Source of the DNA: Epilithonimonas zeae
GTDB lineage: Bacteria > Bacteroidota > Bacteroidia > Flavobacteriales > Weeksellaceae
Length of the DNA stretch: 64,000 nucleotides
Reading direction: 5' to 3'
Assembly: GCF_900141765.1 (NCBI RefSeq)
Contig: NZ_FSRK01000002.1
Coordinates: forward strand, 682,001-746,000
The notes under the pieces are model-generated. The model searched no databases. It saw only the letters and a list, made by a program, of their open reading frames with translations, and had not been told where the DNA came from. Of this stretch, positions 43,895 through 64,000 are shown piece by piece. Numbering within the stretch: the stretch's first letter is position 1; the number at the start of each line of letters is the position of its first letter. A program made the position numbers and the translations under genes.

Positions 43895-46800
43895 ATGAAA
43901 TTTAAAATACTGATGAGTCTTCTTTTTATTTTAGGCTTTTATCAACAATCATTTTCACAATCCCGACCAGGATCATCTATGCAGCTACAAAAAAAGAGGC
44001 TGCCAAATAGTGGAGCGGGCAATGCTATTACTGGTAATCCGATACGAAAGAATTCCCCATCTCAAATTCGTTATCAAGAAACATTACAGGGAGGTGCAAC
44101 AATAATTGGGAATTCATGGTATTATAGCTTACCAGCTGATAATACTGCTATGTTAATAGCAGATGTTGATGACGACAACTCTACAAATATGTCCAGCTCT
44201 GCAGACTTGATTTTGCCTGTAGGATCAAAAATTGAGAAAGTATTTCTATCAATCGAAAGCGGTTATTATGATTATGCCAATTTTACAGCTGTAAAACTTA
44301 AAGTGCCTGGAGCTGCGAGCTACACTACTTTGATATCGGCCACCAGTTTAGCGGACAATCTTTTATCGGATCTGGTTGACAGCACGATTTCCGGAGGTTA
44401 TGGTCAGATGATTTGGGATATTACATCTATGGTTCCTGCTAACGGATACGTAAGCACTGCAGGAGGAGGTGTCGGTGGTCGCTTTTATTTGGCAGATCCC
44501 AATCCACAGCCTTATAATATGGGTGGATGGTCAATGATTGTGGTATATTCTAATCCCAATTCAAAATTTAGAAGCATAACAGTTGCAGATAATTGGCAGT
44601 ATTTTTATGATTCTTCTGTAGAAACTAATATTTCCGGCATAAAAGTACCTTCTTCAGGTAATGTAAAAGCTGTAGTAGGGGTTACAGGCACTTATGGAGA
44701 CAGAGGGTATGAGGATTATGTAAAATTTGGAAAGCAGGGTGATATTTTGACATCCCTAAAGGATCCTATGACGGGCTTGGATACGGATGCTCTAAACAGC
44801 TCTATAGCCTGGACCTCCGAAAATAATGTTTCAGCCGACGGAGGACCCGCAATTTCCGGTAATTATGTTGCACGTAACCCAATTAGTGCAGGACATATTT
44901 ATGGACCTGCCGAATCATGGGATTTTGATGCTGACATATTTGATGCTTCAGGTATTTTAACAGCTTCAATTAACCCTATAGATGTAACGTTTATTCAAGA
45001 AAGCACTGGCGGCGATGTTTTGGCCAGCGGTTCTTACTTTATATCCGTTGATTTGGCTCTTGCTCCAAAACTATTAAAAACATTATCGCCTACTTCTATC
45101 TATGATGGCGGGACAGCTACCTATACATGGACAGTAACGAACACATTGTCTGATGCCATACTCCAGACCATTTCTTTTACTGATAATTTACCTGCAGGTA
45201 TAAAAGTAGCATCCGTTCCAAATGCTTCTATCACTGGCGGTATAGGCGGAGGCATAGCTGCTGCGCCAGGATCGGGAACTGTTACTATTTCTAATTTACA
45301 GCTAAACCCAGGGCAAAGTGCAACAATAAAGGTAGATATTACAAATGTTCCCGGACAACTGAATGCGACTTGTACTGGTTTGCCATCCGCATTTACAAAT
45401 AGCTTTTCCAATATTTCGTTAGGGGATGATGTAAGTCTGGATGCAAGCGGAATTGTACCGCAATGTTTAATTGTCAAATGTAAAGCGAATGTTACGCCTC
45501 CTCCTGTTCAGGATCTGAGTGCTGTCTGCCCGGCAAATACAGTCAATTTGGCAAGTGCTTTTACTGGGACCGTACCCGCAGGCTTATCCTTGGTTTGGTT
45601 TACAAACAATACCCATTCTGGAACGGCATTATCGGGAACACAAATAACTCAGGCTGGTGCTGGATCGTATTATGCATTTTACTATGATAGTGTCTCACAG
45701 TGTTATAGTGTAGCTTCTTCTTTAGTTAATGTAACTGTTTTTAATCTTGACTCAGACGGGGATGGCGTACCTGATGTGTGTGATCTTGACAATGATAATG
45801 ACGGTATTTTGGATACTGACGAATGTGGGTCGGCTAATAGAATTGTTAGAGGAGATTTTTCAAACCTACCGACACCTTCCGGTAACATAAACGCAGCCCA
45901 AGTAGCCGCGGCAACTTCAAATAAATGGGTATATAATGGTACAAATGGAGTAAATCTTTATTGGGGTAATGTTACTTCCGGTTTTGGTAATGGTATCACA
46001 TTGGACAAAGATAACCAGACACAAACCCTTACCCAATCATTGACTGGCGTAGGTTATGTTTTGCCAGGTTTCAAGTCGCAGCTTCTTATTACAAAGTTTA
46101 TGGCAAGAAATGGTGTTGGAGGAACTGGGTCTGGTACTCAGAAAGGAAGGTCATCCACCTTGACCATTAGCTATGCAGGAGTGGAGTATGTCAAACTGGT
46201 TACGGCTGATGGGGTAAATAGTAACTCTACGCTTACATACAGTAATGGGGCTACTGGGAATATCTCTACAATATTAGTGGATAGTAACTATGATAATTGG
46301 ACGATCACACTTCCGTCGAACATTTCCCATTCGGGTGATTTGGTAATTAAAAATGTAAATGGTGTTGGAAATGCTCTTGGAGGTGCTGATGATTTTGTAA
46401 TGGCAGATATTGTTTTAAACTCTTGCAAGGATACCGATGGTGATGGGATTCCCGATTATCTGGATCTGGATTCAGATAACGATGGCTGTTTGGATGCTAT
46501 CGAAGGTGATGAGAATGTAACTAGTTCACAGTTGGTCACAGCAGGAGGGGGCTTGACTGTTGGGATAGGTTCTACCGCTGCTAGTCAAAACCTTTGTGCA
46601 AATGGTACTTGTGTCAATGCCAATGGAGTTCCAAATATTGTGAACCCTGGTGGTGCTGCAGATATTGGAAATGACCAGGGGCAGGGTGTTGGTACTTCAC
46701 AAAATGAAAAACTTACTGCTTGTCTCCCTATCTGTGGTTTTGATAATACAAATGGCGGAAATACGACGCCTGTTCCAGTAGCAAAATCTAATATAAGTGC

Positions 46801-48253
46801 AAATGCCGCTCCTACTATTACATATTTACAAAATGCCTCTGCTTCCGCATCCAGAACCAATGAATTTGATTTTGGCGGAGTAAATCTTACCAATTCTACA
46901 GGGAATACAATACCAAATGTATTGATCGATATAAGCAAGTTAGGTTTCTGGACGCAGAATGTATCTGGAACTACCTTCAAAATATATGCATATAACCAGG
47001 CCAACCAAGCTTGGGAAGGGACTTTGGGTAATGGGCAGACCGCTTATTTCAAGATATTGGGTATTTCGGTAAACGGTGCTCAAATAACAAATCCGAACAT
47101 CAGGTTGCTTCCCGTCCAAAATTCTGCATCGGTAACAGGATATCATTTTGCTTCTACAAGTGATACCGTTTCTGACGTTGCGACGTCTTTTACAGATGGA
47201 GGCACAGGAACTAGTTACTCTATTACTGGTTCTACGGTTTCTCTTCCTCAAAATCTGCCTGTAATAGATTTAGGAGCTTTAGCCAATGGATCTACGCTTA
47301 CAAATGTTAAGATCAGAATGGGTCTGGTAATGCCGAATAATGCAGATGCCTGGGTAAACAATCCGGATACGGGGACAGGTGATATTGATTATTATGTATA
47401 TGGGTTTGCGGATGTTTGGGGTACAGGTTACGATTTTGGAGATGCCCCATCAAGTTACGGGATAGCACAGCATGCTCCTTCATTATGTAGTCCGGCAATT
47501 TATATAGGACCAAACAGACAGGATTATGAAAGTTCTGTTACAGGAAATACAACAGCTGATGCCGATGACCTGAATATGCCAAATTATGATGATGAGAACG
47601 ATAGCCTACCTGATTTTTCAGCAGGTCAAACTTCATATTCTATTACTTTACCATATGTAAACAACGCTGCTTCCGGTACTGTAAGTGCCTGGATAGATTG
47701 GAACAACAACGGCGTTTTTGATGCTTCGGAACGGGCCAATACAACCATATCTACAGGAAGCGGAAATATAGTTCTTACTTGGAAAACCTCTGGAGCTGCA
47801 AGCGGAGAAGGGGTAATACCATCCGGAATCACGACAGGGTATAAAATGGTGCGCACCCGTATAGGGACTATAAGTTCAGAAATATTGAGTGTGTCCGGCA
47901 TAGCGACAGATGGTGAGGTAGAAGACAGGCTTCTATTTGTTTCTGCATATTGCACCAAACCAGGAGATTTCACAACAGGAGGTACACCTACAAAAATAGG
48001 TATCACAGTTCAGGAAAAACTTTCGGGTTGGCCAGAGTCTATTCCTAATGGTCATATAGCTTTGGAATCAAAAGAAAAAGGATTTGTGATTACGAGAGTT
48101 TCGCACGTGAGTACAACACCGGATCTCACAAATGATTCTATCAAAGATCCTAAAGAGGGAATGCTGATCTATGACATTCAGGACAAATGTGTAAAATTAT
48201 TCAATGGGATTACATGGAATTGTATCCGTAGGACATGTAATGACACTAATTAA
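43895..48253 (+). CDS. Giant multidomain exoprotein A (DUF11, TSP3, GEVED, C-terminal W module)
   Basis: 1452 aa. Signal peptide (about 1-21, ending SFSQ). Residues 40-395 form a beta-rich head. A DUF11-type domain (about 398-525, TYTWTVTNTLSDA, SFTDNLPAGIKV) and an Ig-like domain follow. Type 3 thrombospondin calcium repeats occur near 618-648 (DSDGDGVPDVCDLDNDNDG) and 845-872, flanking a beta-sandwich shared with exoprotein B. A GEVED domain spans about 1150-1350 (AWIDWNNNGVFD, DGEVEDRLLF). The C-terminus (about 1365-1452) is not a T9SS type A domain but a module IALESKEKGFVITR...GMLIYDIQDKCVKLFNG. It is probably a calcium-stiffened surface adhesin. A small partner gene follows 14 bp later. 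Confidence 0.8.
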   Translation: MKFKILMSLLFILGFYQQSFSQSRPGSSMQLQKKRLPNSGAGNAITGNPIRKNSPSQIRYQETLQGGATIIGNSWYYSLPADNTAMLIADVDDDNSTNMSSSADLILPVGSKIEKVFLSIESGYYDYANFTAVKLKVPGAASYTTLISATSLADNLLSDLVDSTISGGYGQMIWDITSMVPANGYVSTAGGGVGGRFYLADPNPQPYNMGGWSMIVVYSNPNSKFRSITVADNWQYFYDSSVETNISGIKVPSSGNVKAVVGVTGTYGDRGYEDYVKFGKQGDILTSLKDPMTGLDTDALNSSIAWTSENNVSADGGPAISGNYVARNPISAGHIYGPAESWDFDADIFDASGILTASINPIDVTFIQESTGGDVLASGSYFISVDLALAPKLLKTLSPTSIYDGGTATYTWTVTNTLSDAILQTISFTDNLPAGIKVASVPNASITGGIGGGIAAAPGSGTVTISNLQLNPGQSATIKVDITNVPGQLNATCTGLPSAFTNSFSNISLGDDVSLDASGIVPQCLIVKCKANVTPPPVQDLSAVCPANTVNLASAFTGTVPAGLSLVWFTNNTHSGTALSGTQITQAGAGSYYAFYYDSVSQCYSVASSLVNVTVFNLDSDGDGVPDVCDLDNDNDGILDTDECGSANRIVRGDFSNLPTPSGNINAAQVAAATSNKWVYNGTNGVNLYWGNVTSGFGNGITLDKDNQTQTLTQSLTGVGYVLPGFKSQLLITKFMARNGVGGTGSGTQKGRSSTLTISYAGVEYVKLVTADGVNSNSTLTYSNGATGNISTILVDSNYDNWTITLPSNISHSGDLVIKNVNGVGNALGGADDFVMADIVLNSCKDTDGDGIPDYLDLDSDNDGCLDAIEGDENVTSSQLVTAGGGLTVGIGSTAASQNLCANGTCVNANGVPNIVNPGGAADIGNDQGQGVGTSQNEKLTACLPICGFDNTNGGNTTPVPVAKSNISANAAPTITYLQNASASASRTNEFDFGGVNLTNSTGNTIPNVLIDISKLGFWTQNVSGTTFKIYAYNQANQAWEGTLGNGQTAYFKILGISVNGAQITNPNIRLLPVQNSASVTGYHFASTSDTVSDVATSFTDGGTGTSYSITGSTVSLPQNLPVIDLGALANGSTLTNVKIRMGLVMPNNADAWVNNPDTGTGDIDYYVYGFADVWGTGYDFGDAPSSYGIAQHAPSLCSPAIYIGPNRQDYESSVTGNTTADADDLNMPNYDDENDSLPDFSAGQTSYSITLPYVNNAASGTVSAWIDWNNNGVFDASERANTTISTGSGNIVLTWKTSGAASGEGVIPSGITTGYKMVRTRIGTISSEILSVSGIATDGEVEDRLLFVSAYCTKPGDFTTGGTPTKIGITVQEKLSGWPESIPNGHIALESKEKGFVITRVSHVSTTPDLTNDSIKDPKEGMLIYDIQDKCVKLFNGITWNCIRRTCNDTN
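46163..46383 (+). repeat. 221-bp block nearly identical to 52967-53187
   Basis: Base by base reading finds one difference (C at 46196, G at 53000) in 221 bp, at a constant offset of 6804. Flanking sequence differs at many positions. Confidence 0.9.
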
Positions 48254-48267: not shown

Positions 48268-48801
48268 ATGAATTATAAAATAATAATCAATAGTCTAATA
48301 CTTGTTTTGCTGGCAGATTTTGCCAGCGGACAAGTCTCTATGGGAGGCAAACAAAGTGTAGAAGGAACAGCCACAATTCTGGATTTTAATAGCCAAACTG
48401 GTAATATAAAAGGAATAATCCTTCCGGCAGTGGATGATGTTTCCAACGCATTGTCTTCTGACCCTGCGAGTAATAATGGTACATTTTTATTCAATAAAAG
48501 CAATCAAAAAGTTCAGGTCTACGAGAACAACGTATGGAAAGATCTTTCGGATGCCGGAAGCAGTAGTAATCTTGTTATTAACACTTCTGATGAGAAAAGT
48601 GGAGGTGTGGTTATAGGTGCTTCAAGCAGTCCTGCAAAAGGGGTTCTTATCCTGGAATCGTCGGATAAGGCAATGATCTTACCAAGAATATCAGAACCGC
48701 ATAAAAATGTTAAAAGCCCATATCCAGGAATGATGTGTTTTGATACCGTAAGCAGAACACTTGCAGTATTTGATGGTGCAAAATGGAATTATTGGAATTA
48801 G
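48268..48801 (+). CDS. Small secreted partner protein a (two W modules)
   Basis: 177 aa. Signal peptide ends ASGQ. Two similar halves follow: KGIILPAVDD...GTFLFNKSNQKVQVYENNVW, and LILESSDKAMILPRISEP...PGMMCFDTVSRTLAVFDGAKWNYW. Each half has the pattern of a beta module common in Bacteroidetes secreted and fibre-head-like proteins (GMxVYDT...LxVYNGxxW). The gene starts 14 bp after exoprotein A and is its probable partner. It lacks any known sorting domain. Confidence 0.78.
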   Translation: MNYKIIINSLILVLLADFASGQVSMGGKQSVEGTATILDFNSQTGNIKGIILPAVDDVSNALSSDPASNNGTFLFNKSNQKVQVYENNVWKDLSDAGSSSNLVINTSDEKSGGVVIGASSSPAKGVLILESSDKAMILPRISEPHKNVKSPYPGMMCFDTVSRTLAVFDGAKWNYWN

Positions 48802-48994: not shown

Positions 48995-51900
48995 ATGATA
49001 AAAATAAATTTTTTTAAACAAGCAAAAAGCAAGATATCTCTCTTTGTGATATTGCTTTGTTTACTATTGTCTAACAATATTAATGCGCAAGCAGTTGGAT
49101 GTACCAATACAATGTACCTTTCTCAGGGCACATTCAGTCCAAGTACTGAAGTCGGTTTTTACCGTATTAATAACTCTACGAATCCTTTTACATATCCGTT
49201 GATGAAACAACATGCAGGTTTGATAATTAATGCAATTGGCATAAATCCTGTTGATGGAAATATGTATGGGATGCGTTATTCTAATGCTAATCTCGTAAGA
49301 ATTGACACTAATGGTAACTTTATAAACTTAGGGACTATTCCAGGTTTACCTATTTTAGATTATAATACTGGAGAAATAGATGTGGCAGGTAATTATTATG
49401 TGAAAGCTACTGGACTTAATAACAAGTTCTATAAAATTAACCTGAGTACAAATGCAGTAACTTCATTAACTTTAAGTGCAACCTTAGAACTTTCTGATTG
49501 GGCGTTTAATAACACAGATGGACAATTATATTCTGTAAATCTACCAGACGGAAGATTGTATAAAATAAATCCAAGCACCGGAAATGCAACACCGATTGGT
49601 GCTGCTTACAGTATGCCGGATGCTTTCGGGGCAATGTTTGGAGCAAGTAATGGAGAAATTTATGGAGCAATAAACAGTGGTGGTTTTTATCAATTTAATA
49701 CCGTTACTGGAGCACGGACATTAATTTCTGCATCACCAGCAGCAGACCAAAATGATGGTGCTCATTGTGTTACTCAGCCCATAACCTTCAATGTAAATTT
49801 ATATGTGTCTAAAACAGATAGCAAGACAACTTACACATCGGGAAGTTCCACAACTTATACTATTGTTGCAGGAAATACCGGACCGTTTGGTGTAGTTAAT
49901 GCAAATGTGACAGACCCTGTTCCGGCAGGTATTCCTTCTGCAAATGTAACCTATACAGCAGTAGCTTCTGCGGGAAGCAGCACCCAAGTTGTAGGGACGC
50001 AGACTGGTGCAATTAATGATTTTGTTTCTTTACCAGTTGGTGGGACGGTGACTTATACTGTTACGGTTAATATACCAACTACTTTTACAGCGGATTTAGT
50101 AAATACTGTTACGATTACTGCGCCTATTAATTCTGTTGAGACTAATAGTGCAAATAATTCAGCAACAGATACCAATACAAGAGTTTGTGTTACTCCCCCT
50201 ACGCCAACGGTTTCAGCAGGAGGGCCAACCACATTCTGTGCTGGCGGAAGTGTGACTTTAACTTCATCTTCTGCCTCTGGCAACCAATGGTACAAAGACG
50301 GCGTTATCATTTCCGGAGCAACAGGACAGACCTATTCTGCGAATGCTTCCGGAACATATACGGTTATTGTGACTACTATTGGCTGTCCAAGTCCTGCATC
50401 AGCGGGCACAACGGTAACGGTTAACCCAATACCACCAGCCTTAACTGTTTCAGCAGGCGGACCTACCACATTCTGTACAGGCGGAAGCGTGGTTCTTACC
50501 TCTACCTATAACACTACAGGTGCTTATCAATGGTACCTTAACGGCACAGTAATTCCTGGGGCGGTTTCTTATCAATATACAGCAACTGGTTCAGGGACTT
50601 ATACAGTTACAAGAGAATTAGGAGGCTGTACCAGTCCTGCATCGGCAGGTACGACGGTGACTGTAAATCCTACGCCACCAGCATTGACGGTTTCGGCAGG
50701 TGGTCCTACAACTTTCTGCGCAGGCGGAAGCGTTGTCCTGACCTCAACTTATAATACTACTGGAGCTTACCAATGGTACCTGAATGGAACATTGATTTCT
50801 GGTGCTACCTCGTATCAATATACAGCGTCTGCATCAGGCACCTATACTGTTACAAGGGAATTGGGCGGATGTACCAGTCCTGCATCGGCAGGTACGACGG
50901 TGACTGTAAATCCTACGCCACCAGCATTGGCGGTTTCAGTAGGCGGACCTACCACATTCTGTACAGGTGGAAGTGTTGTGCTGACCTCAACGTATAATAC
51001 TACTGGAGCTTACCAATGGTACCTAAATGGGACATTGATTTCTGGTGCTACCTCGTATCAATATACAGCGTCCGCACCAGGCACCTACACAGTTACAAGA
51101 GAATTAGGAGGCTGTACCAGTCCTGCATCGGCAGGTACGACGGTGACTGTAAATCCTACGCCACCAGCATTGACGGTTTCGGCAGGTGGTCCTACAACTT
51201 TCTGCGCAGGCGGAAGCGTTGTCCTGACCTCAACTTATAATACTACTGGAGCTTACCAATGGTACCTGAATGGAACATTGATTTCTGGGGCGGTTTCTTA
51301 TCAATATACAGCAACTGGTTCAGGGACTTATACAGTTACAAGAGAATTAGGAGGCTGTACCAGTCCTGCATCGGCAGGTACGACGGTAACGGTAAATAAT
51401 TGTACGGGTATTGCTTGTAATACGAAGTTCTATTTAACGCAATATCCTGTATCAGGACCCACTACTTTGTATGAACTAGACAATACTACCAACCCTTTTA
51501 CGATAACTTCTATAGGTACATCTCCTGCCAATATGCATGTAAATGCTATTGGTTACAATACAGTAGATAATCTGATTTATGGGATAAGAACCGATGCTGG
51601 TTTTATGAACTATATGGTAAGGATAGACGGCAATGGAGTATTTACCAGCTTGGGAGCTGTGACTAATTTACCCACAGGTGGTTATAACTCTGGTGCATTT
51701 GATAATAGTGGAAATTACTATGTACTTAATTCCGGGTCAACGAGGTTTTATAGAATAAATGTAACAACCAATACCGCTACATTGATTACACTTTCAAGAT
51801 TGTTAAATGTGAACGATATTGTTTATGATAAAACGACAGGGAAGATGTTCGGCTACGAAGGAGTATCGGGAGCTAATATATTGGTTTCTATTGACCCTGT

Positions 51901-53854
51901 TACCGGAACGGTTACCAATATCGGAGCAAGCGGATTACCGGGTGGTACTCTCGTAGGAGCTTTGTATGTCGATGCCTCTGGAGATATTTTCGGAAATGCA
52001 GATAATGGTTCAGGCTTTTATCAGTTCAACAAAACCACAGGTACAGCTGTAAAAATTTCCAACTCGATTGGTGCCAATGGAAACGATGGGACAAATTGCC
52101 CTGATGCGGTAATTACTTTCCCAGCAGACCTAAGTATTACTAAAACAGACGGCAAAACAGTTTATACACCGGGTACAACCAATACCTACACTATTGTTGT
52201 AAGCAACAACAGTGGTCAGTATGGTGTGCTTGGTGCTACGGTTTCAGATCCTGTACCGGCAGGTATCCCTGCTGCGAATGTATCTTATTCCGTACCGGTA
52301 TTAACAGGCGGAGCAACCACCAGCATTACCGGAACTCAAACCGGTGCTCTTAATGATGTGGTAGGACTTCCTATAGGTGCTACAATCACCTACACCGTTA
52401 CTATCAATGTTCCTGTTGCATTTACAGGCGATCTGACTAATACCGTTACAGTAACTCCACCTGTAAATTCTACAGATCCTAATAATGCTAATAATTCGGC
52501 GACAGATGTAGATAGTTTTAACAATCCTTGTGCGATTACTGCTTCCAATCCTGATTCAGACGGAGATGGAATAGCTAACTCTTGTGATGTAGATGATGAC
52601 AATGACGGGATCTTGGATACGAATGAATGTGGTTCTAATAACAGAATCATTAGAGGAGACTTCTCAAGCCTCCCGACGCCTTCCGGTAACTTAAATGCTG
52701 CTCAGGTTGCAACAGCAACTTCAAATAAATGGATATATAATGGTTCAAATGGTGTAAATCTTTATTGGGGTAGTGTAGCAGGAGGTTTTGGCAATGGGAT
52801 TGTGTTAGAAAAAGATAATCAAACAGAATCTTTAACACATTCTTTAAGCGATGTTAATTATTCTTATTCTGGTACTCCACCTCAAATTCTTATTACAAGA
52901 TTTGCTGCAAGAAATGGTATTGGGGGAACTGGATCTGGTACTCAGAAAGGGAGATCATCCACCTTAACCATTAGCTATGCAGGAGTGGAGTATGTCAAAG
53001 TGGTTACGGCTGATGGGGTAAATAGTAACTCTACGCTTACATACAGTAATGGGGCTACTGGGAATATCTCTACAATATTAGTGGATAGTAACTATGATAA
53101 TTGGACGATCACACTTCCGTCGAACATTTCCCATTCGGGTGATTTGGTAATTAAAAATGTAAATGGTGTTGGAAATGCTCTTGGAGGAGCTGATGATTTT
53201 ATGTTTGCAGATATTGTTTTGAACTCTTGTAAAGATACCGATGGCGATGGCATTCCGGATTATCTAGATTTAGATAGTGACGCAGATGGATGTTCCGACG
53301 CTATGGAAGGCGGTGCAAATGTTATCGAGTACTGGTTGGTAACGGCTGGCGGTGTAGTGAATGGTGGTAGTACCACTGTGAATCAAAATTTATGTGCAAG
53401 CTCAAGCTGTATAAGTACCGGAACTGGTAATAATGGATTGCCTAAGGCAGCGTTTGCTGCAGGATATAGCAACACAACAGGTCAGTCTGTTGGGAACTCT
53501 CAGAATGCATTGGTAAATGACTGTTTCTGCTATGAATCTCCTACTGATCTTACTGCAATAGTTCCAGTAAATCACGGCATATCTGCACTAGGAAGAGCAG
53601 GCGCAGAAAATGGCAACTGGCCAATGTTGAGAAATTCTGCATACACAGCACTAGAGGCTAAAACCAAAGGTTTTGTTGTAACCAGAACTACCAGCCCGGA
53701 AACGACTGTTGCAATTCCTGTTGTAGGGATGATGGTATTTGATACAGATGAGGATGGAGGCAAAGGCTGTCTGAAAATCTACACCGGATCAGGAGTAGGA
53801 GAAGGATGGAAATGCTTTACAACACAGGGCTGTCCGCCACCTCCAAGTAACTAA
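48995..53854 (+). CDS. Giant multidomain exoprotein B (DUF6923, DUF11, five Ig-like repeats, W module)
   Basis: 1619 aa. Signal peptide (about 1-31, ending INAQ). Domain order: DUF6923-like propeller (about 32-260; NAIGINPVDGNMYGMRY), DUF11 (267-400; VSKTDSKTTYTSG), five Ig-like domains (about 400-802) of which four are near-identical 81-residue repeats, a second DUF6923-like domain (805-1035), DUF11 (1042-1180), TSP3 repeat (DPDSDGDGIANSCDVDDDND), the beta-sandwich shared with exoprotein A (1218-1408), TSP3, and the C-terminal module (about 1522-1619; ALEAKTKGFVVTR, GMMVFDTDEDG, CLKIYTG, GWKCF). No T9SS type A domain is seen. It is a likely adhesin; the gene for partner b follows. Confidence 0.82.
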   Translation: MIKINFFKQAKSKISLFVILLCLLLSNNINAQAVGCTNTMYLSQGTFSPSTEVGFYRINNSTNPFTYPLMKQHAGLIINAIGINPVDGNMYGMRYSNANLVRIDTNGNFINLGTIPGLPILDYNTGEIDVAGNYYVKATGLNNKFYKINLSTNAVTSLTLSATLELSDWAFNNTDGQLYSVNLPDGRLYKINPSTGNATPIGAAYSMPDAFGAMFGASNGEIYGAINSGGFYQFNTVTGARTLISASPAADQNDGAHCVTQPITFNVNLYVSKTDSKTTYTSGSSTTYTIVAGNTGPFGVVNANVTDPVPAGIPSANVTYTAVASAGSSTQVVGTQTGAINDFVSLPVGGTVTYTVTVNIPTTFTADLVNTVTITAPINSVETNSANNSATDTNTRVCVTPPTPTVSAGGPTTFCAGGSVTLTSSSASGNQWYKDGVIISGATGQTYSANASGTYTVIVTTIGCPSPASAGTTVTVNPIPPALTVSAGGPTTFCTGGSVVLTSTYNTTGAYQWYLNGTVIPGAVSYQYTATGSGTYTVTRELGGCTSPASAGTTVTVNPTPPALTVSAGGPTTFCAGGSVVLTSTYNTTGAYQWYLNGTLISGATSYQYTASASGTYTVTRELGGCTSPASAGTTVTVNPTPPALAVSVGGPTTFCTGGSVVLTSTYNTTGAYQWYLNGTLISGATSYQYTASAPGTYTVTRELGGCTSPASAGTTVTVNPTPPALTVSAGGPTTFCAGGSVVLTSTYNTTGAYQWYLNGTLISGAVSYQYTATGSGTYTVTRELGGCTSPASAGTTVTVNNCTGIACNTKFYLTQYPVSGPTTLYELDNTTNPFTITSIGTSPANMHVNAIGYNTVDNLIYGIRTDAGFMNYMVRIDGNGVFTSLGAVTNLPTGGYNSGAFDNSGNYYVLNSGSTRFYRINVTTNTATLITLSRLLNVNDIVYDKTTGKMFGYEGVSGANILVSIDPVTGTVTNIGASGLPGGTLVGALYVDASGDIFGNADNGSGFYQFNKTTGTAVKISNSIGANGNDGTNCPDAVITFPADLSITKTDGKTVYTPGTTNTYTIVVSNNSGQYGVLGATVSDPVPAGIPAANVSYSVPVLTGGATTSITGTQTGALNDVVGLPIGATITYTVTINVPVAFTGDLTNTVTVTPPVNSTDPNNANNSATDVDSFNNPCAITASNPDSDGDGIANSCDVDDDNDGILDTNECGSNNRIIRGDFSSLPTPSGNLNAAQVATATSNKWIYNGSNGVNLYWGSVAGGFGNGIVLEKDNQTESLTHSLSDVNYSYSGTPPQILITRFAARNGIGGTGSGTQKGRSSTLTISYAGVEYVKVVTADGVNSNSTLTYSNGATGNISTILVDSNYDNWTITLPSNISHSGDLVIKNVNGVGNALGGADDFMFADIVLNSCKDTDGDGIPDYLDLDSDADGCSDAMEGGANVIEYWLVTAGGVVNGGSTTVNQNLCASSSCISTGTGNNGLPKAAFAAGYSNTTGQSVGNSQNALVNDCFCYESPTDLTAIVPVNHGISALGRAGAENGNWPMLRNSAYTALEAKTKGFVVTRTTSPETTVAIPVVGMMVFDTDEDGGKGCLKIYTGSGVGEGWKCFTTQGCPPPPSN
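50183..51397 (+). repeat. Five Ig-like coding repeats, four with exact 243-bp period
   Basis: Units start at 50426, 50669, 50912 and 51155, with a more divergent first unit from about 50183. Each encodes 81 residues of the Ig-like pattern FCxGGSVVLTSTYNTTGAYQ and GTYTVTRELGGCTSPASAG. Confidence 0.92.
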
Positions 53855-53951: not shown

Positions 53952-54530
53952 ATGAACAAGATAATTTCAATCATATTAATAAGTGTTTCCGCCACTGCCT
54001 TTTCTCAGGTAAGAATAGGAAAGTCTGACGCAGCCAATCTTAGCAGCACTTCAGTTTTGCTGGAGTTTGGAGATACAAAAGACAAAGGAATTGTATTGCC
54101 ATATGTAGAAACAGTTCCTGCAGAAGGAAGTACACAAGCCACAGGTGGTACCATTATTTTTGATGTTTCTGCAAACACTGAGTACAAAATAAAAGTCAAA
54201 AATCAGAATGCAGGTTGGCGAGACCTCAGTGTGCAATCCGGATATTCCACATCGGTAGAAACTATTGTAAAGCCAGTACAGGCAACGCCATTGGCGGATA
54301 ATACAAACGCAAAAGCAATCATTGGTTCGTCAACTTCTGCAGCAGATGGCATTTTGGTGTTGGAGTCTACGGACAAAGCAATGGTGCTGCCAATTGTAGA
54401 TGATTATAAAGCTATCAAAAATCCTTCCCCCGGTATGCTTGCATTCCTGAAAGGCCTTACAGCAAATGAACATCGCTTGATAGTTTTCAACGGACAGAAA
54501 TGGACGTTCTGGAGACCAAAAGTGAACTAA
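53952..54530 (+). CDS. Small secreted partner protein b (two W modules)
   Basis: 192 aa. Signal peptide ends AFSQ. The first module reads KGIVLPYVETVPAEG...GTIIFDVSANTEYKIKV...GWRDLS. The second reads ILVLESTDKAMVLPIVDD...PGMLAFLKG...LIVFNGQKWTFWRP. The start VRIGKSDAANLSSTSVLLEF is shared with partners c and d. It lies 97 bp after exoprotein B. No membrane segment or sorting domain is present. Confidence 0.78.
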   Translation: MNKIISIILISVSATAFSQVRIGKSDAANLSSTSVLLEFGDTKDKGIVLPYVETVPAEGSTQATGGTIIFDVSANTEYKIKVKNQNAGWRDLSVQSGYSTSVETIVKPVQATPLADNTNAKAIIGSSTSAADGILVLESTDKAMVLPIVDDYKAIKNPSPGMLAFLKGLTANEHRLIVFNGQKWTFWRPKVN

Positions 54531-55791: not shown

Positions 55792-56304
55792 TTAGGGTTT
55801 CCAAAAAGACCAAACGGTTCCGTTGTAAACAACAAGCTGTTTTTTCACGGTGTCATAAACCATCATTCCTGGCGCAGGGCTAATGATGTTAAGATGAGGG
55901 CTTGCTACTTTTGGTAAAATCATCGCTTTGTTGGTATCAGAAAGTACTAAAATCCCGTTAGCTGGGTCTGATGTATTTGTTCCAATCATAGTTTTAGCTG
56001 TGGTAAGCTCGGTTTTGGATTGCTGTATAGCAATGTTAGCCTGGCCGGTAGTATCAATACTCAAATCAAACCAACTTCCTTGTTTCAGGTATTTCATCTT
56101 GTGATCGGTCACATCATAAATAATAGTTCCGTTTTCAGTACTGCTGGCTGTGCTTTCAACATAAGGGACGATCATTCCTTTGTTTTCTGTATTGGCGAAC
56201 TCCAACGAAACCGATGTGTTGGTAACGTTGGTTTTGCCAATAGCGACTTGAGATTTAATAACAATTGTTACAAAAATCAATACTACTCCTAAATTTTTTT
56301 TCAT
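55792..56304 (-). CDS. Small secreted partner protein c (two W modules)
   Basis: 170 aa from the ATG at 56304, where MKKNLGVVLIFVTIVIKSQ is a signal peptide; an upstream ATG at 56337 would put 11 polar residues before it. Modules: KGMIVPYVEST...GTIIYDVTDHKMKYLKQGSW, then ILVLSDTNKAMILPKVASPH...PGMMVYDTVKKQLVVYNGTVW ending SFWKP. About 70-80 percent of residues agree by eye with partner d at 61806-62321. It follows giant exoprotein C. Confidence 0.8.
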   Translation of the reverse strand: MKKNLGVVLIFVTIVIKSQVAIGKTNVTNTSVSLEFANTENKGMIVPYVESTASSTENGTIIYDVTDHKMKYLKQGSWFDLSIDTTGQANIAIQQSKTELTTAKTMIGTNTSDPANGILVLSDTNKAMILPKVASPHLNIISPAPGMMVYDTVKKQLVVYNGTVWSFWKP

Positions 56305-56368: not shown

Positions 56369-59300
56369 TTAGTCCGGGCATGTCTGTGTAGAAATACAAT
56401 ACCAATGATAGTTGACACCATTATCTGTAGAGGTGTACATTTTCAAACAATGATTAGTGGCATCATAAACTACCATTCCCTCTACAAAGTTCCCTGACGG
56501 TATTTCTACAGGAACATCCGGCGTTGAGGGGTTGCTGTCAGCATCACTGAAAGCGACTCTGTTTACAACCAATCCTTTTGTTTTGGATTCTAATGCAATC
56601 CATCCTCCTTTTCTTACCATTGGCCAATTGTCGGCATCTGTTTCACCTGCTCTTGCCAGAGAAGTAATTCCAACTTTGGTGTCCAAAATAGTTCCGCCGG
56701 TTGTGAGTCCTGGTTTGTAACAAAATGTAGGACAGCTATTTATCAGCGCATTTTGCGAATCTCCTATGCCTTGTCCCGTAGTATTACTATATCCTGTTGG
56801 TAGAGTTAAAAACTGAGGAACACCATTCGCATTAACACAAGTTCCCGTAGCACATAAATTTTGATTAACAGGCGTACTGCCTCCTGTTACAGTTCCTCCA
56901 GCTGTTACAAGCTGACCTGTTGAGATATTTGCTGCACCTTCTATCGCATCAGAGCATCCATCACCATCAGAATCTAGATCTGACTGGTTAGGAATTCCAT
57001 CAGTATCCGTGTCACATATTTTTTTAGAAAAAATAGAATACTGAGTGCGCTCTCCTGCTCCAACTCCGGAGTTTGTTAATTCAATAGAAGAAACAAGCGT
57101 ATTACCAATTCCTTTTAACATAATCATTTGATTATCCACGTTACCAGAACTCGTTATTTTTCCGCTAGATACATTATAAATCATACGAGGAAAGGCTGTG
57201 GTAATATTGGCTGAATAAAAAGCGTTATTTGCAGTTCCTCCATTTACACTAAAAGTATAATCAACAAACGAAGGAGAACTTGAAACAACATCTAAATCAT
57301 TCAGGTAAAATGCAATTTCACTTGCAGGAATAGCAGGGCTAAATGTAATTGTATAACTAATTCCTCCTACTCTTTCTATTTGCTGTCCTCCTCCCGATTG
57401 ATTTACAAAAAATCTGTTTTGAGAATCGTTCAAACTATTTGTAGTAGTTACAAGAGTACCATTAGTTGTAACAGTTACAGTTGATGTAGTCTGCCCCGTC
57501 CATGCCCCGGAAGTATTTTGGGAGAGATAAGGAGTACAATCTTCTGTGATATCTAAGATACCATCATTATCATCATCATAATCACACATATCTGGGATGC
57601 CATCTCCATCAGAATCTACACCAATGCAATAAAGTGTATTTGTATCTGTCGAAGTACTATTTGCTGTATTGGCATCATTAATATTGGCTGGGGCTGTTAT
57701 TGTTACTGTATTTGCAAGATTTCCTGTAAATGTTGAAGGGATATTTACTGTCACAGTGTAGGTGACTGTTCCATTTACAGGGAGCGATATCAAATCATTA
57801 ATTGCACCCGTTTGTGTGCCTGTTACAGAAGTTGTACTTCCGGCAGAAGCCACAGCCGTGTATGACATGTTTGCAGCTGGAATTCCGGCCGGTAACAGAT
57901 CGGATACGGTAGCATTTTGTACCCCAAAAGGACCATTATTTCTTGCTACAATAGTATAAACGGTATTTGTTCCAGCTGAATAAGTGCTTGTTCCATCTGT
58001 TTTGGTAACAGATAGATCTGCATCAAATGTAATTGGAGCAGTAACGCAATGGGCACCGTCGTTATTTCCACTTGCTGGTGCAGAGGAAACCTGCACTCTG
58101 TTTCCGTTTGTCAAATTAAATTGAAAAAAACCACCGGCATTATTAACCCCGTAGATTTCGCCGGTACTTGAACCAAAAAGGGCTCCAAAGGTTGCCGCTC
58201 CGGGAGAGGTACCTATAAAACTTACTGTTCCGGTCGATGGGTTAATAGAAAATAGCCTGCCATCTAAAGCAACGCCATATAAGAGATTTGTAACCACGTT
58301 GTATGCTAAGTCAGAAGGATCAGTAGCTTGTGATAAAGTAATTGGTACAGCCGTCAAAGATGCTATATTAACTCTGTATATTGTACTATTGGAGCCGGAG
58401 TGCTTAATGTAGTAATTCCCGAGATGATCTATCTCTCCACTGTTATAATTAGTGGTTCCGGTTGCAGCGGGTAACCCGGAGATGGCTCCTAAATCTGTAA
58501 TGGCTCCACTGGAATCAATCCTAAGAAGATTATTACTAAAGGTTCGCATCGCATAGATATATCCATCTATTGGATTAAGCCCGGTTGCATTATATTGATA
58601 GCCTGCCGGTGAACCAATAATAGGATAAGTAAATGGATTGGTAGAAGAGATGATATTGTATATTGCACTGTTGGCATTTTGAACCAGATACATTTTAGAG
58701 TCGCATGGAAAAGGTGTGGGCGATACAATTAGACATACATTACCTATACTGTTTGTGATATTGCCACTAAGGTTTGATATGTTTGCTGATGTATTAGTAA
58801 AGGCAGTTGGGTTACTTTCGCAACTCGGATTGCCTTGACCGGGCATATTGGTAACATTAACAGTGATGGTGGCAGTTGTATTAGCTGCTTGATTATAACC
58901 GGCAACTGCTATGGATGTTCCGCCTGGATTTGCAGTTACGGTTCCAGCTGTCAATCCTGTAACTGTAACATTAGGATTTGCGGCAAGCCTAAGTCCACTT
59001 GGAAGGTTGTCTGTAAATGAAAGATTAGTCTGTGCAACACTACCGGCAGCCGTATTGTTAAGAGTAAAAGTATATGTTGCTGTACCATTAGAAACAATAG
59101 TAGAAGGAGATACACTTTTAGTAAGCACTGTAACTGGAGCGAGAGATGGCGAAAAATTATCATACAGATAATATACTCCCTGTGCATTGGCCAAAGTAGT
59201 AGCTCCACCTTGTCTAAGCTGACCTACTGTCATATACTCTTCACCTCCTACCGCAGTATATTGCAATGTTACCTTTACCCAATTATTACGGGATGTTGCT

Positions 59301-60004
59301 CCATAAACATCGGTATTGCTTGCGGGGATTAAAACTCTGCCACTACCAAAGGAATTAAGTAGTGGTGCAAAGCTTCCTCCACCCACTGTATTGCTATTTG
59401 AAGGAGATGTTGTCGAAAATACTGCACCGATAAAGCCTTGTTCTGATGCTGGAAGATCGACATATGTTAAAACAGGTAAAAATGCGGAAGGCGACCCGCC
59501 GAACATGTGAGCTACATAAAAAGAAAAACTATAAGTAATACCTGCTATCAGGGGAGATGATAACCTATTGGTAAGATATTCTTTGTAATTGTTAAGTGGA
59601 GAGTTATTTACTTCCGCATAACCTCCTACAAAACCAGTTCCGCTTTGGGCTGTAAGTGTCTGTGGGCTAAGTGTAAGGCTAGACCCGCTAGTTGGAGTAC
59701 AGACATTCATATAATCCGGAGTACCTGCAGTTGTAGGCTGTGTCCATCCTGTAGCTCTGGTTAGCTGGCTTTGGGCATTAGGGCATTGTGAGAAATTCTC
59801 AAAATCCGGATTACTGATGTTTTGCGCACCAATATAACAACCTATTAATATTAAACAAAACCTTATAAGATTGTTTCTCAAGATATGGTTCTTGATTTGA
59901 TTTCTTTTTAAAATTATATTTTTCGTCACATTTTGCGTTATGTCACGACCAGATACTATTAATTTTAGCAACGCAAATAAGTGTTTAGAATAGAATTTAA
60001 TCAT
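56369..60004 (-). CDS. Giant multidomain exoprotein C (two DUF11, DUF6923, TSP3, W module)
   Basis: 1211 aa. The hydrophobic signal core (FCLILIGCYIGAQ) sits near residues 48-60 after a long basic n-region; no internal ATG is available to shorten it. Then: an N-terminal domain starting NISNPDFENFSQCPNAQ, typical of Bacteroidetes surface proteins; DUF11 (about 293-425); DUF6923-like (435-655; NATGLNPIDGYIYAMRT); DUF11 (660-800); TSP3 (DSDGDGIPDMCDYDDDNDG); a beta domain; TSP3; and the C-terminal module (about 1110-1211; WIALESKTKGLVVNR, GMVVYDATNHCLKMYTS). The shared C-terminus ties it to A and B. Partner c follows and gene e precedes it by 24 bp. Confidence 0.8.
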   Translation of the reverse strand: MIKFYSKHLFALLKLIVSGRDITQNVTKNIILKRNQIKNHILRNNLIRFCLILIGCYIGAQNISNPDFENFSQCPNAQSQLTRATGWTQPTTAGTPDYMNVCTPTSGSSLTLSPQTLTAQSGTGFVGGYAEVNNSPLNNYKEYLTNRLSSPLIAGITYSFSFYVAHMFGGSPSAFLPVLTYVDLPASEQGFIGAVFSTTSPSNSNTVGGGSFAPLLNSFGSGRVLIPASNTDVYGATSRNNWVKVTLQYTAVGGEEYMTVGQLRQGGATTLANAQGVYYLYDNFSPSLAPVTVLTKSVSPSTIVSNGTATYTFTLNNTAAGSVAQTNLSFTDNLPSGLRLAANPNVTVTGLTAGTVTANPGGTSIAVAGYNQAANTTATITVNVTNMPGQGNPSCESNPTAFTNTSANISNLSGNITNSIGNVCLIVSPTPFPCDSKMYLVQNANSAIYNIISSTNPFTYPIIGSPAGYQYNATGLNPIDGYIYAMRTFSNNLLRIDSSGAITDLGAISGLPAATGTTNYNSGEIDHLGNYYIKHSGSNSTIYRVNIASLTAVPITLSQATDPSDLAYNVVTNLLYGVALDGRLFSINPSTGTVSFIGTSPGAATFGALFGSSTGEIYGVNNAGGFFQFNLTNGNRVQVSSAPASGNNDGAHCVTAPITFDADLSVTKTDGTSTYSAGTNTVYTIVARNNGPFGVQNATVSDLLPAGIPAANMSYTAVASAGSTTSVTGTQTGAINDLISLPVNGTVTYTVTVNIPSTFTGNLANTVTITAPANINDANTANSTSTDTNTLYCIGVDSDGDGIPDMCDYDDDNDGILDITEDCTPYLSQNTSGAWTGQTTSTVTVTTNGTLVTTTNSLNDSQNRFFVNQSGGGQQIERVGGISYTITFSPAIPASEIAFYLNDLDVVSSSPSFVDYTFSVNGGTANNAFYSANITTAFPRMIYNVSSGKITSSGNVDNQMIMLKGIGNTLVSSIELTNSGVGAGERTQYSIFSKKICDTDTDGIPNQSDLDSDGDGCSDAIEGAANISTGQLVTAGGTVTGGSTPVNQNLCATGTCVNANGVPQFLTLPTGYSNTTGQGIGDSQNALINSCPTFCYKPGLTTGGTILDTKVGITSLARAGETDADNWPMVRKGGWIALESKTKGLVVNRVAFSDADSNPSTPDVPVEIPSGNFVEGMVVYDATNHCLKMYTSTDNGVNYHWYCISTQTCPD

Positions 60005-60028
60005 AATATGTATTTTTAATAGTAATGG

Positions 60029-60316
60029 TCAAAGGTTGATTACGTTTGTGCTGAGATTCTCAGTAAGATTCCTTATTCTTAAAACACTATCAACATCCAG
60101 GTTTTCCGTAGGAGAGGGAATGTTTACAGTATAGTTTTTGGTACGTAATTGATCTCCAGTTATTATTGGAAGGATGATGCCGTATAAAATAGTGTCGTTT
60201 GCTGGTTTTAAGGTAACACCTAAAATGGTTTTGGCCGTAGTAGTATTGACGCCAACCTGAGCATGTGTAAAAAATCCTGTAAAAAGAAGAATTTTCACCA
60301 ATAGTGCTGTACTCAT
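60029..60316 (-). CDS. Truncated small secreted protein e upstream of exoprotein C
   Basis: 95 aa from the ATG at 60316 (MSTALLVKILLFTGFF...HAQ signal); an ATG at 60352 is also in frame. The mature start VGVNTTTAKTILGVTLKP and YGIILPIITGDQ match the beginning of the first module of the partner proteins, but the GMxVYD...W part and the whole second module are missing. It could be a shortened family member with a different job or a decaying copy. It lies 24 bp upstream of exoprotein C in the same orientation. Confidence 0.6.
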   Translation of the reverse strand: MSTALLVKILLFTGFFTHAQVGVNTTTAKTILGVTLKPANDTILYGIILPIITGDQLRTKNYTVNIPSPTENLDVDSVLRIRNLTENLSTNVINL

Positions 60317-60352
60317 CTTCAATATTTTAAAATTACTTGAATTATTTATCAA

Positions 60353-60702: not shown

Positions 60703-60871
60703 AAAAACAAAAACAAATTCTAAAAGAAAATTCTCTCAGAGATATTTTATATATATAAAACTATTTGATTAGAAAACTAAAGTGATTGTGAGTTATATTA
60801 AAAATGCAGTCAGGTAATTCATTTTCTTGGTAAGCAAAATATCCTTGAATATTAAAATATTGATTAAGAAT

Positions 60872-61312
60872 TTAATGAGCCTGCCCGATATCCAGACGGT
60901 CGAATTTGCCATCAGTATTTAGATGAAATTTGAAGAATACTTTAAAAGTTCCCCAACTTCCGGCTTTGAAATTTTCTGTGATATCTTTCCCATCGTTTTC
61001 CACCTTGTCAATTGTGAGAAATTTTTCTTCACCCAAAGCTTTTGAAAAGAAAGATTTGAAATCAACCTTATTACCATCATCCGTCATCGTCGGGTTTTCT
61101 GTAAAGAAAGAATACCAGCTTTTATCTCCGGATTGTAACGCTTCAACGGCACTTTTTACTGTTGAATTAGTGATTTTTGATAAGTCCATAGTTTGTTGTG
61201 TTTTTTTAATTGTTGAGTTTTTATTGCCAGACATTTTATCTTTATTTTTATTCTGAGCGCAAACTGTTACATAGCAGCAAGTAACAAAAATCGGGAATTG
61301 AAGCTTTTCCAA
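60872..61312 (-). CDS. SnoaL/NTF2-like small protein
   Basis: 146 aa as the longest frame. The region MDLSKITNSTVKSAVEALQS, SWYSFFTENPTMTDDGNKVD, KALGEEKFLTIDKVEND and FKVFFKFHLNTDGKFDRLD is a typical cone-shaped SnoaL/NTF2-like fold. The first 41 residues (MEKLQFPIFVTCCYVTVCAQ) could be a poor signal peptide; a start at 61189 (MDLSKI) would give the bare 105-aa domain and is at least as likely. The ligand or reaction is unknown. It is a single gene with its own terminator. Confidence 0.7.
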   Translation of the reverse strand: MEKLQFPIFVTCCYVTVCAQNKNKDKMSGNKNSTIKKTQQTMDLSKITNSTVKSAVEALQSGDKSWYSFFTENPTMTDDGNKVDFKSFFSKALGEEKFLTIDKVENDGKDITENFKAGSWGTFKVFFKFHLNTDGKFDRLDIGQAH

Positions 61313-61388
61313 TTCCTGATTTTGAAAGAGCTTATGAATACTCTATTACCTCGTCGTGTATCCGTCGTTAGCGAAAATAGTCTGACCA

Positions 61389-61690
61389 CTATTCACCATC
61401 CGGATCATAAGTTAGTTTTTTGGTAACAGCACTTGGTTGCATATCTTTTTCCCCAAGCATATCTTTAGCTTTTTAATAATTTTTTCATCGTAGAAAAAGC
61501 AAGGGTACTTACCCAAAACTTTCTTTATAGTATCTGTAAAATGGGTATGCGATGCGGCTAGGGTAGAGGCAATATGCTTGATACGGAAGAATTCCTGTTC
61601 CTTGCCTTTGATGACATCATCAATGTGCCTATCCAGAAAGGTAAGGTACTTTTCAGCGATTTCGTTTTTACGTAAAGTAGGCTTATTCAT
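61389..61690 (-). pseudogene. Truncated AraC-type HTH protein with frameshift
   Basis: The 92-aa frame contains one AraC-like helix-turn-helix (FFRIKHIASTLAASHTHFTD then VLGKYPCFFYDEKII). The frame then loses the family pattern. One base shift restores KAKDMLGEKDMQPSAVTKKL followed by TYDPDGE and a stop at 61389, matching the usual start of the second HTH (LTYDPSNF). The upstream sensor half and the rest of the second HTH are absent. It is either a remnant or an unusual one-HTH protein broken late. Confidence 0.6.
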
Positions 61691-61805
61691 TAGAGTAGTG
61701 GTTAAAGAAAAAATCCCTAACAGATTTTCAACAAACTAATGGCCGAAAGCTCTGTTAGGGAAAAGGTCTATCTATAATAACAGTATTCTGTTTTGTAGTG
61801 TCAGG

Positions 61806-62321
61806 TTATGGCTTCCAAAAAGACCAAACTGTCCCGTTGTAAACGGCAAGTTGCTTCTTTGTGGTGTCATAAACCATCATTCCTGGTGCCGGATTGATGA
61901 TATTAAGGTGCGGGCTGGCTACTCTTGGAAGGATCATCGCTTTGTTGGCATCAGACAGAACCAAAATGCCGTTGCTATCCATTGCTGTATTGTTTCCTAT
62001 GGTTGTTTTAGCAGTACTAAGTTCCGGTTTGGAGGTCTGGATAGCGATATCAGATTTACCCGTGGTATCCACAGAGAGATCAAACCAGCTGTTATCTTTT
62101 AGATACTTTACTTTATGATCTGAGTTGTCAAAGATTACAGATCCGTTTTCTGTAATAGCAGATTTGTTTTCTATATAGGGTAGTATCATTCCTTTGTTTT
62201 CTGAATCTGAGAATTCCAAAGAAACGGAATTGTTGCTGACACTGGTTTTTCCAATAGCCACCTGGGATTTAATAGTAATAGCCGCTACTATTAATAAACA
62301 GGTTAAAATATTTGTTTTCAT
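61806..62321 (-). CDS. Small secreted partner protein d (two W modules)
   Basis: 171 aa. Signal peptide MKTNILTCLLIVAAITIKSQ. First module: KGMILPYIENK...GSVIFDNSDHKVKYLKDNSW; second: ILVLSDANKAMILPRVASPH...PGMMVYDTTKKQLAVYNG ending SFWKP. It is a close paralogue of partner c. It starts 23 bp after the end of the giant exoprotein D gene, repeating the giant-then-small order of the other cassettes. Confidence 0.82.
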   Translation of the reverse strand: MKTNILTCLLIVAAITIKSQVAIGKTSVSNNSVSLEFSDSENKGMILPYIENKSAITENGSVIFDNSDHKVKYLKDNSWFDLSVDTTGKSDIAIQTSKPELSTAKTTIGNNTAMDSNGILVLSDANKAMILPRVASPHLNIINPAPGMMVYDTTKKQLAVYNGTVWSFWKP

Positions 62322-62344
62322 TGTGTGTTTTTTATGTGAGATAA

Positions 62345-64000
62345 TTAATTTGTTCTTTGATCAAAAATAGGAGGAGTAGTACCTGCCGCACACGCTTTGA
62401 GACCAAAATTATAATTGGTAAAACTAGCATTGGTTACCGTAGCAGATAATGTTCCGTCAGGAGTTCCGTCTCCACTTCCTGTATTATTGTTTTTGTTTTC
62501 ACCAGTCGTTACCCATCCCGCGATGTTATGGTTAATTGGGGTTGTTGCAGTATTAGTTCCTATTGGATAAACGTTAGGAGACAACTGCAGGGTGTAATTG
62601 CTATTAGCACCTACGTTGATGGTGTAAGTTCCATTGGAATTAACGGGTGTGCTGTTAGCGATGATACCGCTGCTGTCTACCAGATAGATATAACTTCCTC
62701 CTGCAGAAGTACCAGCTTCACCACTGTCGATTACAGTATTGCCATTCGCATCGTTAAAGACCGTACCGGAAATTGTAAGACAAGCCTGAATGGTAACGTT
62801 GACATCATCTGTACTTACACAGTCGCCAGTGGTAATAGTCCATCGGAAGGTATATGTTCCTGCAGCACTCAAAGCGGATACCGATGTCTCAGGTGATGAT
62901 GCGTTAGAAAAGACAGGCGACGTTCCTGCAGGTGAGGATATAACTGACCATGTTCCTGTTCCTGAGCTGGGATCGTTGCCCACCAATGATACGGCAGTAT
63001 TGCAGATCACATCCTGATCACTTCCCGCATTGGAATTAATCTGCGGAGCTACCGTAATGGTAAATGTTCCCTCTAATGATGTTCCGGAGCATGCGTATTC
63101 TTTATCTAAAAATGCTCCTATGCCCCCAACACTGGGAACTAGCTTTATTTTGAAGGTGTACACACCGGCTTTCGTTAGGTTACCAATTACTGTAGAAGTG
63201 GAGGTAAAAGATCGTAGATTGGAAGCTTCAAATGTAGGGGACGCAGCTCCGTTTGGTACTGAAACGGTTGTAAAATCATATTTTCCCCCAAAATCCTGAA
63301 AATAGCTGCTGTTAACCACACCTTTATATACGGTAGGCAATTGAACGGTTGCTGTTACAACGCCTGAACCCGGATAACATACCACTGTATTGTTAACGCT
63401 AACATTAGGACGTGCACCATCAGATATGTGAATATAATAATACTGAGTAGCACCAATACAACTTCCATTGCTTGTATAGACTGTAAATCTGTAAGTTCCT
63501 ACACGCCATCCGCCTGATGGAGGCGTCACTGTCACACTTCGGTTAGCGGTGCCAGCACCGCTTGTAGTAAATCCTGGAGCACCTCCTGGCGGGATAACAC
63601 CCGATACTAATACGGTTGAAATATTGGTTACAGGATCAGAAGAATCTAATCTGTAACCGAAAGTGATAGGTGTGGTGCTGCCTGCCATACCACACTGTAC
63701 TTCTCCGCCACTATTAGCATTAAAATATGAAGTCATCTGATCGGGTTCAGAAGCTACAAGAAAAGAAACAGGTTTTGGCGTAATACCTGTGATAGTGTAG
63801 GTAATCTCTGGGGTAACATAAGTACCCGAAGCATTAGTAATTGTCAGGTAGAATTTATACACTCCCGGTGTGGTGGCTCCCGTGAAGTATAATGCGCCAT
63901 CAAAAATTCTCCAATAAGTAATATTACCTCCTGACGGCTGGCTGTTTACCGTCATAGCGATGCTTGTACCATAGGTAGGATTACCAGCTGCACCTGCTGT
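62345..64000 (-). CDS. Giant exoprotein D (partial, N-terminus off window)
   Basis: The frame is open to the right edge (551 codons seen). Visible parts are Ig/PKD-like beta domains (for example YKFYLTITNASGTYVTPEITY, and SNAGSDQDVICNTAVSLVGN followed by GTYTFRWTITTGDCVSTDDV) and a C-terminal SdrD/Cna-B-like domain (ISGTVFNDANGNTVIDSGEAG, NYTLQLSP). It ends GLKACAAGTTPPIFDQRTN, without the W module present in A, B and C and without a T9SS type A domain. Partner d follows. Its start and total size are not visible. Confidence 0.78.
   Translation of the reverse strand, partial: TAGAAGNPTYGTSIAMTVNSQPSGGNITYWRIFDGALYFTGATTPGVYKFYLTITNASGTYVTPEITYTITGITPKPVSFLVASEPDQMTSYFNANSGGEVQCGMAGSTTPITFGYRLDSSDPVTNISTVLVSGVIPPGGAPGFTTSGAGTANRSVTVTPPSGGWRVGTYRFTVYTSNGSCIGATQYYYIHISDGARPNVSVNNTVVCYPGSGVVTATVQLPTVYKGVVNSSYFQDFGGKYDFTTVSVPNGAASPTFEASNLRSFTSTSTVIGNLTKAGVYTFKIKLVPSVGGIGAFLDKEYACSGTSLEGTFTITVAPQINSNAGSDQDVICNTAVSLVGNDPSSGTGTWSVISSPAGTSPVFSNASSPETSVSALSAAGTYTFRWTITTGDCVSTDDVNVTIQACLTISGTVFNDANGNTVIDSGEAGTSAGGSYIYLVDSSGIIANSTPVNSNGTYTINVGANSNYTLQLSPNVYPIGTNTATTPINHNIAGWVTTGENKNNNTGSGDGTPDGTLSATVTNASFTNYNFGLKACAAGTTPPIFDQRTN

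Follow-up and report, generated by a model that had tools for sequence, protein, structure and literature searches.

Large adhesin-like proteins of the type IX secretion system (T9SS) can carry a type B C-terminal domain and commonly have the gene of a cognate PorP/SprF protein directly downstream, with several such pairs, showing specificity, in one genome (PMC12618676, in the portion of the text available). The type A and type C sorting domains of secreted Bacteroidota proteins, ~100 residues long, lie at the extreme C-terminus (PMC10202324, likewise in the available portion). Here we describe a stretch of 64,000 nucleotides from Epilithonimonas zeae, family Weeksellaceae (the window; G000:C2:682001-746000 of a 4.08-Mb genome), in which genes for giant secreted proteins that end in a particular sequence module are followed by genes for small secreted proteins built from the same module. 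These pairs are a conserved unit of two genes that share modules and diverge in step, and the two chains are predicted to build a joint domain that needs both of them. As far as those portions of the two sources go, the gene layout and the C-terminal position of the module resemble those of T9SS type B proteins with PorP/SprF, and the location at the extreme C-terminus also resembles that of type A and type C sorting domains. Unlike the PorP/SprF shuttles, the partner here, ~155 residues long in its mature form, is homologous to the C-terminal module. We consider it reasonably probable that each pair encodes a two-chain adhesin-like protein whose shared C-terminal domain, with one module copy from the giant and two from the small protein (1+2), is an export/anchoring unit. 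The genes concerned are as follows.

43895-48253, + strand: giant A, 1452 aa, with a signal peptide (by eye) and DUF7933 and GEVED above cut-off; C-terminal module at ~47939-48244 (profile match)
48268-48801, + strand: small protein a, 177 aa, with a signal peptide (by eye) and two modules
48995-53854, + strand: giant B, 1619 aa, with a DUF6923/Ig_7/DUF11 body; C-terminal module at ~53501-53836 (profile match)
53952-54530, + strand: small protein b, 192 aa, with two modules
55792-56304, - strand: small protein c, 170 aa from the ATG at 56304, a start chosen by the extent of the profile match, or 181 aa from an upstream GTG
56369-60004, - strand: giant C, 1211 aa, with a DUF7933/DUF6923/DUF11 body; C-terminal module at ~56372-56755 (profile match)
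61806-62321, - strand: small protein d, 171 aa, with two modules
62345-64000, continuing past the window, - strand: protein D, 804 aa in full, without a C-terminal module

The preliminary description of this DNA, made from the letters alone, had listed four giant-plus-small cassettes. Three of them, A-a, B-b and C-c, are indeed a giant followed, after 14, 97 and 64 bp respectively, by a small secreted protein on the same strand, and the small proteins have the sizes given for them (170-192 aa); the fourth, D-d, does not belong with these, since a profile search of the genome detected no C-terminal module in D. A, B and C each end in a single module copy, which makes up the last ~110 residues of the giant, whereas the small proteins consist of a signal peptide and then two copies. 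All three copies, one from the giant and two from the small protein, align with each other in hhalign (giant versus small C copy, E 2e-10; small N copy versus small C copy, E 7e-6; giant versus small N copy, E 6e-5), which bears out the earlier view that the small proteins are two copies of one module. The position of the giant copy is nearly fixed: in 147 of 150 distinct giants it lies at most 10 residues from the stop. A profile built from the eight giant ends of this genome shows four invariant cysteines, and some relatives are without one or more of them. A small residue before a glutamine was found near the N-terminus of 142 of 149 small proteins by pattern match, and the cut of the signal peptide was taken to lie there; the median mature length is 155 residues, the mature part of 127 of the 149 contains no cysteine, and a lipobox-like sequence occurs in five of them all. 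The module matches no family in Pfam or NCBIfam above cut-off. A weak match of DUF2793 (Pfam) to the last ~25 residues of three of the four small proteins in the window (E 0.001-0.009) falls below the curated cut-off, and membership is not claimed. Several giant bodies contain adhesin-type repeats, and the bodies differ among paralogues. A PHROGs search returned weak matches only, nearly all to families of unknown function.

The genome encodes eight giants ending in the module and nine small proteins, which form seven adjacent pairs; one further giant, here called D', accompanies d at ~2.5 kb, and one small protein on C1 (L014) is an orphan. We surveyed 60 genomes from 33 genera of the host family with profile matches at E up to 1e-6, and found the giant profile in 39 and the small profile in 41 of them. 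Among the matches listed (150 giants and 150 small proteins), a small protein lies at most 200 bp downstream on the same strand of 131 giants, at 200-600 bp for one and at 0.6-4 kb for seven, while a giant lies within 200 bp upstream of 131 small proteins, at 200-600 bp for one and at 0.6-4 kb for five. Because 131 of 150 are adjacent, the pairing exceeds chance. Such adjacent pairs occur, again among the matches listed, in at least 36 of the 60 genomes and at least 19 of the 33 genera, with up to 13 in a single genome. Other genomes were thus searched for small proteins standing mostly alone, and it was found instead that most of those listed have a module-ending giant upstream, the co-occurrence that the preliminary description had anticipated.

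The arrangement was followed further in 78 named loci with 88 small proteins (90 at lower score limits), a set gathered with a c/d-type query in which the c/d subtype is over-represented. A giant lies less than 300 bp upstream of 58 of the 88; the order is reversed in 11, with a giant open reading frame (ORF) less than 300 bp downstream (as read in L143 and L167); and on the same strand, a giant lies 0.6-4.3 kb upstream of 13 and 1.5-2.5 kb downstream of two. The other four have no giant within 5 kb, two of them being at contig edges and one (L205) beside a broken giant. No natural ORF joining a giant end and a small protein was detected in the 78 loci at the threshold used.

The partners have also diverged in step. 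Distances among giant ends and among small proteins correlate with r 0.78 over 61 pairs, and none of 2000 permutations reached this value. Within our own genome, counting D' as the partner of d, the correlation is r 0.894 (n=8; 23 of 40320 permutations as high), and since these pairs come from one genome, species history is no explanation. Subtypes sorted by hand-made regular expressions put 52 of 61 pairs on the diagonal, a rough measure to which we prefer the distance correlation. These comparisons show that the cassettes stay together as units; matched divergence of this kind would be expected of interacting partners and is compatible with adjacency without contact. The proposal that the pair is a functional unit is accordingly well supported by adjacency in at least 36 of the 60 genomes, by the reversed-order pairs (11 of 88) and by the matched divergence.

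The D cluster can be placed in the same scheme. Over its residues 8-659, D shares 55% identity with the start of a C. jejuense giant that bears the module (2489 aa), which marks D as a shorter relative of a module-bearing giant. The module-bearing giant nearest to d is D' (2257 aa), just outside the window, with its module at G000:C2:746818-747180, ~2.5 kb upstream of d. The gene order D'-D-d was read in Epilithonimonas arachidiradicis (L131), one of whose small proteins is 92% identical to d, and a giant-to-small spacing of ~2.5 kb recurs in two related genomes, G008 and G037 (spacing only, the intervening gene being unread).

For structure prediction, we used an alignment of nine pairs whose two genes are in frame and were translated across the intervening stop codon(s), together with 69 single rows (32 small, 37 giant) taken from a hand-picked 50 small and 57 giant sequences, pre-filtered to <80% identity for small and <85% identity for giant rows. 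AlphaFold2 folded an artificial read-through chain of one C-type pair with a predicted local distance difference test score (pLDDT) of 84.5 and a predicted template modelling score (pTM) of 0.84, with pLDDT below 50 solely at 124-158, that is, in the linker and signal peptide. The same series of strands appears three times in this joint chain, at giant 43-117, small 174-222 and small 259-311. The giant end alone gave pLDDT 68.2 and pTM 0.52, with 66 of 120 residues below 70, and residues 41-50 went from pLDDT 45 and helix in the giant end alone to pLDDT 93 and strand in the joint chain. By our estimate, a chain with a misplaced giant end, about a third of its length, would hardly exceed a pTM of ~0.6. 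The natural reading of these models is that the small protein completes the terminal fold of the giant, whose own module copy is predicted not to fold fully alone. A direct complex between giant end and small protein is on this basis very probable, and a pseudo-threefold 1+2 architecture is probable. The preliminary description had suggested that the small protein might cap, anchor or oligomerise with the giant; structure prediction supports a direct complex with the giant end, which may serve capping, anchoring or export. A search with both profiles against the sequences of solved structures gave no match at E up to 10.

Beyond the family, the module changes its setting. In a phylum survey of 345 genomes, in which part of the first-look candidates were scored in giant- and small-profile searches, the giant profile exceeded 80 bits solely in host-family genomes among the scored candidates, and the best matches outside the family among them reached 46 bits for the giant and 57 bits for the small profile. 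A set of 36 module-matching open frames from outside the family, some fetched twice and many cut by locus ends, included one with two copies and four with a C-terminal module, the rest having one copy near the N-terminus. Among ten hand-chosen proteins of this set that were scanned, an S74 chaperone domain was found in two and a YadA head repeat in one; both domains are known from homotrimeric fibres. Fibre-like proteins of Bacteroidota, some with S74 or a YadA head, thus share the module at weak similarity, mostly once per chain near the N-terminus, whereas in the present system it is split 1+2 over two genes and the giant copy is C-terminal. A giant-small pair 739 bp apart was also seen outside the family, at L157:1913-10504 in a record titled Sphingobacterium psychroaquaticum, and may stem from transfer or contamination. 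Two other loci from outside the family, L103 and L125, each encode a protein that ends in the module and, after it, one with the module near its N-terminus, and these are possible distant parallels of the split arrangement.

From these observations we propose the following model. Each cassette would yield a two-chain secreted adhesin-like protein. Both chains have N-terminal signal peptides (by eye), so both would reach the periplasm; the giant would bring one beta-rich module copy and the small protein two more, and the giant would end in a single pseudo-threefold domain that all three are predicted to build together. The pair would be a homotrimeric fibre module split 1+2, which would let one giant chain carry it, a view we take because the relatives outside the family mostly have the module once per chain and a few carry S74 or a YadA head. 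As an origin, the splitting of a trimeric module would be simple. The assembled domain would serve as the export and/or surface-anchoring unit of the giants, the role that seems most likely because it occupies the position of a T9SS sorting domain in giants without a detectable type A or type B domain. The scan for these domains covered 12 module giants, namely A, B and C, six from L011, L012, L013, L015, L016 and L143, and three from L131 and L157. None of the 12 matched the type A model TIGR04183, which does match two neighbouring proteins, or the type B model TIGR04131, which matches a neighbouring protein in L157; for type C (ChiA-type), the giants scanned gave no NCBIfam match, the presence of a type C model in the library being unconfirmed. 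The module differs from type A domains both in this lack of a TIGR04183 match and in the prediction that the giant copy alone does not fold fully. None of the four small proteins in the window has an NCBIfam or Pfam match above cut-off, and so they do not show the feature of a PorP/SprF partner. Two-partner secretion was considered and rejected, as the window partners are proteins of 170-192 aa and, in the same scans, gave no family match that would mark a TpsB outer-membrane pore. A sorting or anchoring role of the joint domain comes close to an even chance in our judgement; its dependence on type IX secretion is more tentative; and it is possible, if rather doubtful, that the pairs represent an additional class of sorting or anchoring domain at the C-terminus of Bacteroidota proteins, one that requires two chains, the completed pseudo-trimer being handed to the type IX machinery or to an anchor.

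Several points weigh against this model. Contact between the partners is predicted and not measured, the prediction rests on one folded pair, and secretion and anchoring are inferred. The linker of the artificial read-through keeps the two chains near each other; the joint placement of giant end and small protein is deduced from pTM; the joint model is only moderate over residues 1-40, with block means of 64-80; a threefold arrangement was read from the repeated strand pattern and not from measured symmetry; and the two AlphaFold2 runs differ in alignment (78 versus 46 rows) as well as in partner. Foldseek found no fold match for the joint model in the PDB (best E 1.8) and no significant match in BFVD (best E 0.039), where many rows are named tail-fibre, collagen or S74 proteins, which are not significant and were not used as evidence. 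Adjacent genes can co-diverge without contact, so that the correlations speak for a unit that is kept and not for binding. Among the matches listed, 11 of 150 giants have no small protein and 13 of 150 small proteins have no giant within 4 kb, although some of these may have partners outside the 150 giants and 150 small proteins listed, and the orphan of L014 stands in our own genome. Seven of the ten proteins scanned from outside the family carry no trimeric domain. For type IX secretion, SprA is present in 56 of the 60 family genomes, including all 39 that bear giants, and the four without it carry neither the giant nor the small profile; this co-occurrence is weak, because the genomes without SprA belong to only two genera and 17 of the 56 with SprA have no giant.

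The same complex prediction would apply if the small protein capped or oligomerised the giant at its free distal end, protecting or bundling the C-terminus while export or anchoring is achieved in another way. The few fibre proteins with module relatives and the adhesin-type repeats in several bodies would suit such a role. We consider this unlikely, as the 12 giants scanned show no type A or type B sorting domain and the N-terminus shows, by eye, a signal peptide alone, for which reasons the C-terminus would be the likeliest anchor point. A periplasmic chaperone that keeps the giant C-terminus export-ready and is then released, leaving no lasting surface complex, would account for the separate signal peptide, for the scarcity of lipobox-like sequences among small proteins (five of 149) and for a giant end that AlphaFold2 leaves incomplete alone; however, the small protein is a module homologue predicted to complete the fold of the module, and the four in the window match no known chaperone family, which makes this reading improbable.

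The presence of the module beyond the family at weak similarity might suggest ordinary modular secreted proteins with a common Bacteroidota module, neighbours in an operon without contact. The pairing of 131 of 150 among the matches listed, the reversed-order pairs, the matched divergence and the more complete fold in the joint chain argue against this, and we give it little credence. A giant with a small downstream gene and many paralogous copies also recalls a toxin-immunity pair or another polymorphic-toxin arrangement, a reading that we regard as scarcely credible: the C-terminus of the giant is conserved while the bodies vary, and the partner is an exported homologue of that C-terminus, for which reasons it was rejected.

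We found no description of such a pair in the open-access literature searched, and PMC9950754, PMC6421346 and PMC7073777 concern, in the portions available, other matters; a two-part surface protein of this kind would be new relative to the sources searched. The pairs are widespread in the family and often multicopy, yet their module gives no match above cut-off to a family of Pfam or NCBIfam, and the cassettes form specific, easily testable partner pairs. If the two-chain model is correct, it would account for the maturation of giant adhesin-like proteins that have no known sorting domain, and would present a presumed trimeric module naturally split 1+2; if a two-chain sorting class exists, single genomes would run up to 13 adjacent pairs in parallel, and our own genome seven.

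Other features were seen around the cassettes. A 107-aa ORF at 60029-60352 (- strand), with a generic module-protein start (a signal peptide, then VGVNTTTAKTILG) and an early stop, lies upstream of giant C and has the look of a remnant. The space between the C-c and D-d cassettes holds a 146-aa ORF of unrelated type at 60872-61312 (- strand), which we take to be SnoaL-like in appearance. A recurring pair of helix-turn-helix-like proteins (by eye), of ~140 and ~110 aa (L143:18307-19131, L167:12988-13715 and L133:11582-12315), adjoins d-type small proteins or their giants and is possibly transposase-related. At 41302-43550 (+ strand) of the window, a TPR protein with a weak GerE (LuxR-type) match below cut-off stands beside an exported protein of ~180 aa whose C-terminal motif is RPPP-like (in the window, RAPP). 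At L014:12899-14574, close to the orphan small protein, there are again a regulator and an RPPP protein of similar appearance, and RPPP exported proteins without the regulator were seen at L013:10909-11565, L143:6428-7027 and L205:9202-9735; the RPPP proteins elsewhere are 15-23% identical to the one in the window. The TPR/GerE regulator and the RPPP protein may regulate the cassettes.

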